Part shown: positions 1 to 11,175 of the stretch, in pieces | Numbering within the stretch: the first letter of the stretch is position 1 | Layout: each line of letters begins with the position of its first letter | Translations under genes and position numbers: made by a program | The notes under the pieces: model-generated | The model's input: only the letters and a program-made list of their open reading frames with translations | What the model was told of the DNA's origin: nothing | The model's database searches: none | From: an uncultured Flavobacteriaceae bacterium | GTDB lineage: Bacteria > Bacteroidota > Bacteroidia > Flavobacteriales > Flavobacteriaceae | Assembly: GCA_937930675.1 (NCBI GenBank) | Contig: CALHCC010000052.1 | Coordinates: 1 to 48,593, forward strand | Direction: 5' to 3' | Length of the DNA stretch: 48,593 bases

Positions 1-408
1 AACTTGTGCTTTTTTAATAATTTCGATATAGCTATCTAATTCTTCTAACAATTTTGGGTCTCCATTCTGAGCGTATAAATAGCTAATGGCTTCCATAAAT
101 TTATAGAAATCTCCATCATGCCAACGCATTCCTTTATGCTCCCCTTCTTTTAATCCTGCAGCTATTTTAAAATTATTTAACGCATGTCCTACATCACCTG
201 TTAAAAGGCTTCTCATATAAGGAATCATGGTTTGTTCTGCGGTTTTAAACTTATCTGCCCAAAATCCTTCTGTCCATTTACAATCTCCTAAATTGATACT
301 TTTTAGTTTTACATGATCGCTATGTCTATGATTTAAAATAGCACGCTCTTGAGCAAAACCTGTACTAAACATCAAAAGACCCAAAGCACTTGTTATTATT
401 TTTTTCAT
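1..408 (-). CDS. GH127-family (DUF1680-like) glycoside hydrolase, N-terminal part only; continues beyond the left edge
   Basis: Manual minus-strand translation from ATG at 408: MKKIITSALGLLMFSTGFAQERAILNHRHSDHVKLKSINLGDCKWTEGFWADKFKTAEQTMIPYMRSLLTGDVGHALNNFKIAAGLKEGEHKGMRWHDGDFYKFMEAISYLYAQNGDPKLLEELDSYIEIIKKAQV. Signal peptide plus GH127-like N-terminal pattern (GFWADKF, FKIAAG, DGDFYKFMEAISY). Absent from the ORF track because it is truncated by the window. Confidence 0.75.
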   Translation of the reverse strand, partial: MKKIITSALGLLMFSTGFAQERAILNHRHSDHVKLKSINLGDCKWTEGFWADKFKTAEQTMIPYMRSLLTGDVGHALNNFKIAAGLKEGEHKGMRWHDGDFYKFMEAISYLYAQNGDPKLLEELDSYIEIIKKAQV

Positions 409-440
409 TCTATATATTAATTTTAATTATTTTAATATTT

Positions 441-1020
441 CTAAATAAGGTTCCCACCCTTTTCTATACTTATCCAAACATAAAATGCCGAAGAAACATC
501 TCCAAAATACAAGATTATAGATTGATTGTTCCAATTTGACGGTACTTCAAAATCTCTATAATAACTTCCTACAGGATTGTCTCTATAAATTTTAGGAGGT
601 CTAGGAGGCAATAGCCCCATGTAAGTTTGTTTACTCTTTGGAATATTTAAAATATTAGGTGTAAAAGGATAGATAATGTTTGTATATATAGGTTGTCCAA
701 ACCCTTGTAACTCCCAATTAGAGGGTACATTTATAGTCGCCCAGTCTTTACCTGCAAAACTTTTCGTCATAAAATCCAACGGACGCTCTTCGGTTTTACC
801 CACATAATTAAATTTCCATACGCCGTTCAACGATTTTACTCGTGAAACCGTTCTATCGTCCTTTAAAGCATCTTCTACATTTAAATAGGAATATGAAGCT
901 ACCCTGGCCTCCATTTTATTTTGTTCAAACATTAACTCATTTTCCCAATCATTTTTGATGTTGAGAAAAGGCAGATGTAAACACTAATAACAAACTAATC
1001 TTTAATAATTTAATTTTCAT
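441..1020 (-). pseudogene. Remnant of a second GH2 beta-galactosidase (N-terminal ~180 aa, frameshifted after the signal peptide, C-terminus lost)
   Basis: ORF 441-932 aligns with residues ~30-190 of the GH2 protein at 1480-4710 (FEQNK..RV.SYSY...DALK.DR.VSR..SLNG.WKFN...VPSNWEL.G.G.PIYTNI.YPFTP...[11 protein letters not shown]). Upstream in another frame: ATG AAA ATT AAA TTA TTA AAG ATT AGT TTG TTA TTA GTG TTT ACA TCT GCC TTT TCT CAA CAT CAA AAA TGA (signal peptide then stop). Confidence 0.85.
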
Positions 1021-1134
1021 TTCCTTAAGAAATATATTTTACATTGTTAAACAACAAAAGTTTGTTGCCTGATTTACACCTCAGCAACAAACTTTAAAAT
1101 TATTTTAATAGTAACAATTAAATGTTCGCTAAAA

Positions 1135-8164: not shown

Positions 8165-9607
8165 ATGAGCAATTTATTATTTGGACATAAAAATTTATAC
8201 ATTAACGGAGAATTGGTTCCAGCATCCAATGGAAAAACATTTGATGTAATTTCTCCAGCAACAGAAAAAGCAGTAGGTTCTATTGCATGGGCTAGTAAAG
8301 AAGATACTTTAAAAGCTTTAGAAACAGCAGAAGAAGGTTTTAAGTACTGGTCTAAATTACCTATTGACGAACGTAATGCGTGGATTGAAAAATTAAAACT
8401 TAAAATTATTGAAAATAGCGACTTGCTAAAAGAAGCTATTACACACGAAATGGGTAAAACTTGGGAAGCTTCTCAAGAAGATATCGATTTATTAGTACGT
8501 TCTTTAGATTTTTATGCAAATGAAATAAAAACAAGAAGTACAGAAGAAATTAAAGATAAAGAAGGAACACACACACACCATATTGTATCTAAACCCCTAG
8601 GAGTTGCTGTTGCATTTTTAGCCTACAACTTTCCTTTACTAAATTTAGGATACAAAATTGGCCCAGCACTAGCTGCAGGATGTAGTATTGTATTAAAACC
8701 ATCGGAATTCTCTCCTATTTCTGCATATATTATTGGAGAATTAGCCAAAGAAATTAACTTTCCAAAAGGAGTAATTACTGTACTTTGTGGTGATTTAGAA
8801 AATGTTGGGATTCCTTTATGTGAAAGCACTATTCCACAATTAATTACCATGATTGGTTCTGCAGGAACTGCTCAAAAACTAATAGAACAAAGTAGTAAAA
8901 CTTCTATTAAAAGATACAGCATGGAATGTGGTGGAAACGCTCCATTTATTGTTGCAGAAGATGCGGATTTAGAATTGGCAGTAAATATTGGTGCTATTTT
9001 AAAAACAAGCAACTCAGGTCAAATTTGTGTAGCTCCAAACAGGTATTTTGTTCACGAAAACATTATTGATCAGTTTATTGCTGGGGTTAAAGAAAAGTTT
9101 GAAAATGCCAAAGTAGGTTTTGGAAAAGATAACAAACCTGATATGGGTCCTTTAACCAACAGACAATCTGTATTAAAAGTAGATAGAATTGTAAAAGAAG
9201 CCATTAAACAAGGAGGTAAATTAATTACTGGAGGAAACGAAATTGAAGGGCCAGGATACTATTACGAACCTACCATTGTAAAGTTTGACAAAGAATATGC
9301 AGACATTATGGAAGAAGAAATTTTTGGGCCTGTTGCCATTGTTGTTCCTTATAACGATGAACAAGAAGTCCTAAAATTAGCAAACAATGTAGATGCTGGT
9401 TTGTCTTCTTTTGTGTTCTCTAAAAGTGATGAAACCATTCAATTCTTTTCCGAAAATTTAGACTTTGGAGAAATTCAAGTAAACGGTGTTAAGTACGATA
9501 TTTATTTACCACACGTAGGGGTTAAAAACGCAGGGGTTAGTATGGATTGTTCTTCTTATGCTTTAGATGACTATTTATCTAAAAGAAGAATTACCAAATC
9601 TTTATAA
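8165..9607 (+). CDS. NAD(P)-dependent aldehyde dehydrogenase (3,6-anhydro-D-galactose dehydrogenase / DauA candidate)
   Basis: 480 aa; ALDH motifs: MECGGNAPFIV, SGQICVAPNRYFV (catalytic Cys), EEIFGPVAIVVPY. Confidence 0.85.
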   Translation: MSNLLFGHKNLYINGELVPASNGKTFDVISPATEKAVGSIAWASKEDTLKALETAEEGFKYWSKLPIDERNAWIEKLKLKIIENSDLLKEAITHEMGKTWEASQEDIDLLVRSLDFYANEIKTRSTEEIKDKEGTHTHHIVSKPLGVAVAFLAYNFPLLNLGYKIGPALAAGCSIVLKPSEFSPISAYIIGELAKEINFPKGVITVLCGDLENVGIPLCESTIPQLITMIGSAGTAQKLIEQSSKTSIKRYSMECGGNAPFIVAEDADLELAVNIGAILKTSNSGQICVAPNRYFVHENIIDQFIAGVKEKFENAKVGFGKDNKPDMGPLTNRQSVLKVDRIVKEAIKQGGKLITGGNEIEGPGYYYEPTIVKFDKEYADIMEEEIFGPVAIVVPYNDEQEVLKLANNVDAGLSSFVFSKSDETIQFFSENLDFGEIQVNGVKYDIYLPHVGVKNAGVSMDCSSYALDDYLSKRRITKSL

Positions 9608-9611
9608 TTAA

Positions 9612-10553
9612 ATGAATCATTTAAAACAATTTATAAGTTGCGATTGGGGAACTTCTAATTTTAGACTTAGATTGGTTGATGCAGAAACGCTTAACGTAAT
9701 TGCAGAACACACCAGTAGCACAGGGGTAAAAAAACTGTATGCAGCATATAAAGAAAGCAACACAACTCAAAGTCAAACCAGTTACTTTGTAGCCTATTTA
9801 AAAACACAAATTAAGGAATTACCCATATCAGGAGCAATGCCTAAAATTGTTGCTTCTGGAATGGCTACTTCTAGTATTGGTATGGTAGAACTACCCTATG
9901 TAGATATGCCTATTAACTTTACAGGAGATAATTTATTAAGCAAAGAAATTTCAGAAGATGGTGTAACCATTGTACTAATTTCTGGAGCAAAAACTACTGC
10001 AGATGTCATGCGTGGTGAAGAAATTCAAGCCATTGGATTGTCTAAAGAAATTCCAACGAATAAAGAAGGAGTTTTATTATTACCTGGTACACATAGCAAA
10101 CATGTAGCGTTTAAAAATAGTGTATTTACATCATTTACTACACATATGACGGGTGAGCTGTTTGACGTTGTAAGCAAAAACACCATTCTTGCCAACTCTT
10201 TAGAAAAAGCAGATTGGAACACTAATTTTGAAAGCTCTTTTTTAGAAGGAGTAAACAAAGGCTTAAACAATCAACACATCGCATCTTTATTTTCTATTAG
10301 AGCAAACGATTTATTAAGTAATAAAACAAATCAAGAAAACTTTTACTTTTTATCTGGTTTGTTAATCGGTGGAGAATTGTCTTATTTAAAAAACAGCAAT
10401 CAACAAGTATATATTGCCACTACAGGTATATTGTACACATTATACAACCTGGCCTTAAGCCAAATTAATGCTACAGTAATCTCTTTTGATGCTGATAAAA
10501 TTGACAAAGCTTTATTAATAGGTCATAAAAAAACATTAGAAACATATGTCTAA
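9612..10553 (+). CDS. dgoK: 2-dehydro-3-deoxygalactonokinase (DgoK family; DauC candidate)
   Basis: 313 aa; CDWGTSNFRLRLVD N-terminus, MRGEEIQAIG, LLPGTHSKHV, FTTHMTGELFDVV are DgoK-type motifs. Confidence 0.93.
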   Translation: MNHLKQFISCDWGTSNFRLRLVDAETLNVIAEHTSSTGVKKLYAAYKESNTTQSQTSYFVAYLKTQIKELPISGAMPKIVASGMATSSIGMVELPYVDMPINFTGDNLLSKEISEDGVTIVLISGAKTTADVMRGEEIQAIGLSKEIPTNKEGVLLLPGTHSKHVAFKNSVFTSFTTHMTGELFDVVSKNTILANSLEKADWNTNFESSFLEGVNKGLNNQHIASLFSIRANDLLSNKTNQENFYFLSGLLIGGELSYLKNSNQQVYIATTGILYTLYNLALSQINATVISFDADKIDKALLIGHKKTLETYV

Positions 10554-11175
10554 CTTTTCTTGGGAAAAATACAATCAAACTCCCGTTGTAGGTATTATGA
10601 GAGGATTCTCTATGGAACAAATTAGAGAAATTATCCCCACTTATATTGAAAGTGGTTTTTACACCGTAGAAATCACCATGAATTCAGAAGGTGCAGAAAC
10701 ATCCATTGCAACTTTATTAAAAGAGTATCCTGAATTAAATGTAGGAGCAGGTACTGTTTGTAATATGGATGATTTAAAAAGAGCTTTAGATGCTGGATCT
10801 CAATTTATTGTAACTCCTGTTATTGATGAAGAAGTAATTAAACATTGTGTAAAAAACAACATTCCTGTATTTCCAGGAGCTTACACACCTACAGAAATTT
10901 ACAAAGCCTGGTCTTTAGGAGCCAATGCCGTTAAAGTATTTCCAGCAACACAATTAGGAGTTAAATACATTAAAGATGTTTTAGGACCTTTAAATACCAT
11001 TAAATTACTACCTACAGGTGGAGTTGATAAAAATAACATTAATGACTTTTTTAACATTGGAGTTGTAGGTTGTGGTATGGGTAGTTCTTTATTCGATAAA
11101 AAAATTATTGCTTCTGGAGACAAAGCAGCTTTAAAAGAACATTTTGAAATTATTAAAAAAGGAACTGAAGTTTAA
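10546..11175 (+). CDS. KDPG/KDPGal aldolase family protein (DauD candidate)
   Basis: 209 aa; VVGIMRGFSMEQI, VEITMNSEG, VGAGTVCNMDD, FPGAYTPTEI, VKVFPA, LLPTGGVDKNN; start overlaps the dgoK stop by 8 bp. Confidence 0.93.
   Translation: MSNFSWEKYNQTPVVGIMRGFSMEQIREIIPTYIESGFYTVEITMNSEGAETSIATLLKEYPELNVGAGTVCNMDDLKRALDAGSQFIVTPVIDEEVIKHCVKNNIPVFPGAYTPTEIYKAWSLGANAVKVFPATQLGVKYIKDVLGPLNTIKLLPTGGVDKNNINDFFNIGVVGCGMGSSLFDKKIIASGDKAALKEHFEIIKKGTEV

Follow-up and report, generated by a model that had tools for sequence, protein, structure and literature searches.

A Predicted 3,6-Anhydro-D-Galactose Catabolic Module of the Carrageenan Type in an Uncultured Flavobacterium

Organization of the locus

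The window analyzed here is a stretch of 48,593 nucleotides from an uncultured Flavobacteriaceae bacterium (assembly GCA_937930675.1, contig CALHCC010000052.1, positions 1 to 48,593), and its first 11,175 positions carry what is very probably a catabolic module for 3,6-anhydro-D-galactose (D-AHG), the Wenyingzhuangia-lineage version of the carrageenan-utilization system of Zobellia (Table 1). The metagenome-assembled genome (MAG) comprises 1.97 Mb in 144 contigs and is 85.6% complete. Five genes of the forward strand form a tight operon (5915-11175), in which the kinase and aldolase genes overlap by 8 bp, and this operon diverges from the genes of an AraC-family regulator and a LacZ-type GH2 enzyme. 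The regulator gene starts with TTG, and its coding DNA is kept in relatives. The entire operon order is kept in Wenyingzhuangia, Ochrovirga, and Zobellia, and hence the arrangement is far beyond chance. An earlier reading of the window, made from the sequence alone, had named eight genes, each of which is present where, and on the strand on which, it had been placed. That list had overlooked the gene of 106 amino acids (aa) at 1135-1455, the nature of 441-932 as a GH2 remnant, and the repeats between araC and rhaT.

Table 1. Features of the locus, with predicted functions (positions are those of the window unless a contig is named)
Feature	Position	Strand	Remarks
dagA, GH127 alpha-1,3-(3,6-anhydro)-D-galactosidase	1..408	-	N-terminal 136 aa with signal peptide; PF07944
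dagA, remainder	contig C128, L007:14061-15824		joined total 676 aa
GH2 remnant, second LacZ-type beta-galactosidase	441..932	-	N-terminal ~160 aa; C-terminal ~900 aa missing
106-aa cytosolic VOC-fold protein	1135..1455	-	no Pfam family; kept in carrageenan loci
GH2 LacZ-type beta-galactosidase	1480..4710	-	signal peptide; Pfam GH2 domains; NF052611
cgrA-like AraC-family regulator	4744..5610	-	TTG start; HTH_18 and cupin domains
Putative operator half-site 1 (ATCAAAAAAATACT)	5659..5672	+	
Putative operator half-site 2 (ATCAAAATAACACT)	5690..5703	+	31 bp from site 1
Putative operator half-site 3 (ATCAATAAAAAACT)	5779..5792	+	
Putative operator half-site 4 (GTCAATATAATACT)	5809..5822	+	30 bp from site 3
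RhaT-type inner-membrane permease, putative D-AHG importer	5915..6931	+	PF06379
dauB, 3,6-anhydro-D-galactonate cycloisomerase	7001..8152	+	enolase superfamily; 76.3% to 5OLC
dauA, 3,6-anhydro-D-galactose dehydrogenase (ALDH)	8165..9607	+	best PDB match 6PNU
dauC, 2-keto-3-deoxy-D-galactonate kinase	9612..10553	+	PF05035 DGOK 1.5e-56
dauD, 2-keto-3-deoxy-6-phosphogalactonate aldolase	10546..11175	+	KDPG-type; PF01081, TIGR01182

Identity of the Dau enzymes and the permease

The predicted cycloisomerase, DauB, shares 76.3% of its residues with the solved enzyme of Zobellia galactanivorans (5OLC) and 40.9% with the galactarolactone cycloisomerase of A. tumefaciens (AtGCI, 4GGB), and it scores 670 bits against 5OLC versus 173 bits against the 3,6-anhydro-L-galactose (L-AHG) cycloisomerase 5XD7. 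It keeps K166, D194, E220, E246, and H296, the residues named as catalytic in PMC5698469, and its match to the NCBIfam model of galactonate dehydratase (200 bits) lies below the cut-off of 311. In a maximum-likelihood tree it falls within the Wenyingzhuangia/Ochrovirga group of a 36-row clade with 5OLC (100/99). For DauA, the best solved relative is 6PNU (480 bits versus 290 for the next), the DauA of P. fuliginea, which oxidizes D-AHG with NADP+ (PMC6923384). The window protein is 67-69% identical to Zobellia DauA and, in its own maximum-likelihood tree, groups with the Zobellia loci in a clade of 33 rows (100/100), with Ochrovirga pacifica as its sister (100/100). DauC is 50-52% and DauD 69-71% identical to its Zobellia counterpart, with the same gene order, and the RhaT-type permease is 54-57% identical to the permease that precedes dauB in the polysaccharide utilization loci (PULs) of Zobellia and Wenyingzhuangia.

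The operon is somewhat mosaic, since the nearest neighbors of DauB and DauA differ. Across the named genomes scanned, DauB is 91-92% identical in Wenyingzhuangia, 88% in Ochrovirga, and 76-77% in Zobellia, whereas DauA reaches 82% in Ochrovirga and just 65-67% in three Wenyingzhuangia. Judged from the sequences, this mismatch is a gene replacement in one lineage.

The GH127 gene and the left flank

Contig C128 ends with 141 bp that are identical to the start of the window, and joining the two completes the GH127 open reading frame in frame. The joined protein aligns end to end with the GH127 enzymes of Wenyingzhuangia and Ochrovirga (80-85%), with similar identity to relatives across the join (71-82% on one side, 82-87% on the other), and is 65-66% identical to DagA2 and DagA3 of Zobellia and 43% to DagA1. 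Contig C118, whose end carries another GH127 start, was rejected as the neighbor of C128, given 84% identity over 49 bp versus the exact 141-bp overlap with the window. This second GH127 N terminus (L008:9791-10186), truncated at the contig end, lies beside a folP-like gene.

Beyond GH127, C128 encodes a 239-aa secreted protein, a hybrid two-component sensor (HTCS), SusC, SusD, and a lipoprotein, after which contig C65 follows with core genes. The HTCS is 56-57% identical to those of the carrageenan PULs of W. heitensis and W. aestuarii. SusC and SusD are thus located left of position 1, where the sequence-only reading had expected them, and the adjacent PUL is a carrageenan-type one: its GH127 resembles DagA2/A3 (65%), and it has SusCD and the HTCS. 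Contig C40 (L016:10358-20000, L017:1-2541) carries four S1 sulfatases together with a GH2 and two GH110-like proteins and may be another galactan locus of this genome. We rejected it as a leftward continuation of the PUL because C128 is joined at its left end to C65 and the C40 sulfatases are just 25-33% identical to CgsA, CgsB, and CgsC.

The intact GH2 scores 964 bits against NF052611, slightly below the cut-off of 999, and is 57-59% identical to the GH2 in the same place in Wenyingzhuangia and Ochrovirga. Homology of the GH2 remnant extends to ~1016, and the frame is broken near the signal peptide. The remnant could be taken for a recent duplicate of its neighbor, an origin that we rejected, as it shares 69% identity with the W. 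heitensis GH2 and 61% with the intact GH2 of the window.

A predicted route for D-AHG and its alternatives

The sequence shows orthology, operon structure, and locus composition, whereas substrates, localization, regulation, scavenging, and the role of the VOC-fold protein are predicted. Following the published biochemistry (PMC5698469, PMC6923384), SusC, SusD, and the lipoprotein would import carrageenan oligosaccharides. GH127 (DagA) and GH2 would then act in alternation in the periplasm, the former removing terminal D-AHG and the latter the exposed galactose. The RhaT-type permease would carry D-AHG into the cytosol, where DauA is expected to oxidize it to 3,6-anhydro-D-galactonate and DauB to open the ring, giving 2-keto-3-deoxy-D-galactonate. 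Phosphorylation by DauC and cleavage of the product by DauD would yield pyruvate and glyceraldehyde-3-phosphate. The D-AHG gene set itself is already known and ordinary; the locus adds a near-complete module from a marine flavobacterium with a reduced genome.

The same genes could in principle serve D-galactonate or galactarate degradation, with the enolase-superfamily protein acting as galactonate dehydratase or as galactarolactone cycloisomerase and another aldehyde as the substrate of the ALDH. The DGOK kinase and KDPGal aldolase are indeed common to the De Ley-Doudoroff pathway, and PDB labels 5OLC a galactonate dehydratase. Yet the cycloisomerase is 76% identical to DauB versus 41% to AtGCI and stays under the galactonate dehydratase cut-off (200 versus 311 bits), while the ALDH is nearest DauA and the context is one of GH127, GH2, and SusCD, which leaves this pathway very improbable. 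Catabolism of L-AHG, from agar, would draw on a cycloisomerase of the same superfamily (5XD7). We consider it more improbable still, given the gap between 173 and 670 bits, a kinase of the 2-keto-3-deoxygalactonate type, and a MAG in which no GH16, the agarase family, was found (GH117 was not searched). The sequence-only reading had named D-AHG of the carrageenan type as the substrate, and the DauA and DauB trees, GH127, and the SusCD/HTCS context all support this. Both enzymes lie inside the clades of Zobellia carrageenan-PUL enzymes (100/100 and 100/99), away from the galactarolactone (4GGB, 41%) and L-AHG (5XD7, 173 bits) enzymes; the substrate had been correctly read from sequence alone.

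Several observations weigh against the D-AHG reading or parts of it. The permease and DauC are only ~50-57% like the Zobellia proteins. SusC and SusD are only 30-42% identical to those of other carrageenan PULs (57% for one cut-off SusC), in a comparison that excludes CgtA and CgtB (ZGAL_3580/3581). The GH127 tree pairs the window protein with no particular Zobellia DagA, its long-branch outgroups being unstable and its deep nodes poorly resolved. The contig join depends on an overlap of 141 bp, the MAG is fragmented, and assemblers break for a reason. Finally, at 85.6% completeness absences are no proof.

The missing sulfatase and carrageenase block

In Wenyingzhuangia, the GH2 gene is followed by the 106-aa gene, a TPR protein, an S1_7 sulfatase (62-70% identical to Zobellia CgsB across the relatives), an FAD oxidoreductase, an S1_19-like sulfatase, a GH16, and then GH127. 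Beyond GH2 and the 106-aa gene, the window has just the GH2 remnant and GH127. Sulfatases and a carrageenase had been predicted left of position 1, a prediction that did not hold: none was found in the joined locus (window and C128). No GH16 was found in the 85.6%-complete MAG, either with a W. heitensis GH16 query or with the Pfam GH16 model (no genome-wide search for GH82 or GH129 was made), whereas each of the five relatives searched with the same query gave 5-10 hits. The sole S1_7 orthologue, a distant one (cgsB, 55%), lies outside the locus on contig C141 (L021:10145-11749), alone among housekeeping genes.

The local sulfatases and endo-carrageenase have thus apparently been deleted here. 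The block that cuts the polymer may have been lost and the organism may depend on desulfated or pre-cut oligosaccharides, a scenario that we regard as evenly balanced because the MAG is incomplete. Scavenging of this sort has already been proposed for species without known carrageenases (PMC5698469). The bacterium could instead be a complete carrageenan degrader, sharing the D-AHG pathway and differing in the scavenging step alone, with its sulfatases and endo-carrageenases in the unassembled part of the genome and no functional loss. The incompleteness of the MAG and its 144 contigs favor this explanation, as do the presence of an S1_7 orthologue elsewhere in the MAG and the precedent of Zobellia, in which carrageenases, the key GH2, and SusCD lie away from the PUL (PMC5698469). 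Still, zero GH16 versus 5-10 in five relatives is hard to attribute to 14% of missing sequence, and the interval from GH2 to GH127 lies within one contig, where a GH2 remnant is found and the block is not. We give the complete degrader somewhat less than an even chance. A testable question is whether, for want of the sulfatase/GH16 block, this lineage relies on other carrageenan degraders.

A small VOC-fold protein associated with dau loci

The 106-aa protein has no Pfam family above threshold and no evident signal peptide. Its AF2 model (pLDDT 86.5) has a glyoxalase/VOC fold (Foldseek to 3oa4, E 3.3e-4, TMq 0.70), and H7, H59, E100, and E103 are invariant. At an identity of at least 58%, the protein occurs in 9 of 400 genomes of the family, all nine among the 35 that are DauB positive, a count that kinship makes not fully independent. 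In eight of the nine, the gene is within ~40 kb of dauB. It directly follows dauD in Maribacter-type loci, overlapping it in one genome (G288), and follows GH2 in Cellulophaga and Wenyingzhuangia. Zobellia loci have no VOC gene near dauB, and hence the protein is not indispensable. Our literature search for a glyoxalase associated with carrageenan PULs found no description. It is conceivable, if rather doubtful, that carrageenan catabolism includes this protein as a yet undescribed enzyme, with D-AHG, 3,6-anhydro-D-galactonate, or a related intermediate as its substrate, and that the PUL has been caught reducing to an oligosaccharide-scavenging form in which a GH2 remnant replaces the sulfatase/carrageenase block. 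The role of a small VOC protein so closely tied to dau loci can be tested, in a pathway held to be complete with four enzymes.

Repeats in the araC-rhaT gap

The motif [A/G]TCAA-N6-ACT, chosen by eye from the 304-bp gap between araC and rhaT, has four copies there, in two pairs spaced by 30-31 bp, out of seven matches of the scanned pattern window-wide. A looser IUPAC pattern is near chance across the window (4 versus 2.7 expected). The signal therefore lies in the clustering within one gap and in conservation, rather than in the pattern count. The independent evidence is conservation in relatives only: a pair at 30-31 bp is kept in three Wenyingzhuangia and in Ochrovirga (L066-L069). The regulator is 79-83% identical to those of Wenyingzhuangia and Ochrovirga and 37-41% to Zobellia CgrA. 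The repeats are probably binding sites of the AraC protein.

Comparison with known systems

The PUL of Z. galactanivorans (ZGAL_3145-3159; Ficko-Blean 2017, PMC5698469) has orthologues of the AraC regulator, the RhaT-type permease, DauB, DauA, DauC, DauD, and GH127, with an identical dau order. In the window, however, araC diverges from the operon, whereas in Zobellia it leads it. GH2, SusCD, and the HTCS are local in the window's locus, which has a single GH127 and no DagB, S1_17, S1_7, or S1_19. From the core of this type defined in PMC5698469 (dauA-D, dagA, cgsB, cgrA, cgtA, and cgtB), we found dauA, dauB, dauC, dauD, dagA, cgrA, and, off-locus, cgsB.

The PULs of Wenyingzhuangia aestuarii, W. 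heitensis, and Ochrovirga pacifica, in unannotated genomes, share the layout of araC-GH2-VOC divergent from rhaT-dauBACD, with identities to the window of 87-91% for DauB and 80-85% for GH127. They keep the S1_7, FAD oxidoreductase, S1_19-like, and GH16 genes between GH2 and GH127 (on a separate contig in Ochrovirga), where the window has the GH2 remnant. The right flank (recR, a sodium/solute symporter, and a pdxH-like gene) has the same genes in Wenyingzhuangia and therefore marks the same chromosomal site; we infer that the genus is Wenyingzhuangia or close to it. The DauA of the Pseudoalteromonas CarPUL (PMC6923384, 6PNU) is of the same ALDH family (48% identical), but that locus is gammaproteobacterial and, unlike the window, without GH127.

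More distant loci were also seen. A separate DauB clade, with DauA and RhaT, occurs in uncultured small-genome Bacteroidetes, some of them single-cell genomes (L129, L134, L137, L143). In L129, an HpcH/HpaI aldolase takes the place of the kinase and DauD. A sulfatase and a LacZ-type GH2 lie beside it, and GH127 was not seen; such loci are possibly a non-phosphorylative pathway for D-AHG or a related compound in open water. Chloroflexota MAGs (L109-L117, L123) encode DauB-like proteins of 57-61% identity, with other dau genes not detected nearby. A second DauB group (L118-L145), 51-60% identical to that of the window, occurs in Flavivirga, Algibacter, Tamlana, Mariniflexile, and Seonamhaeicola, in many cases with nearby GH127 and sulfatases. 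A genome of the same genus (G385) has a DauB of this second type, together with GH16 and GH127.

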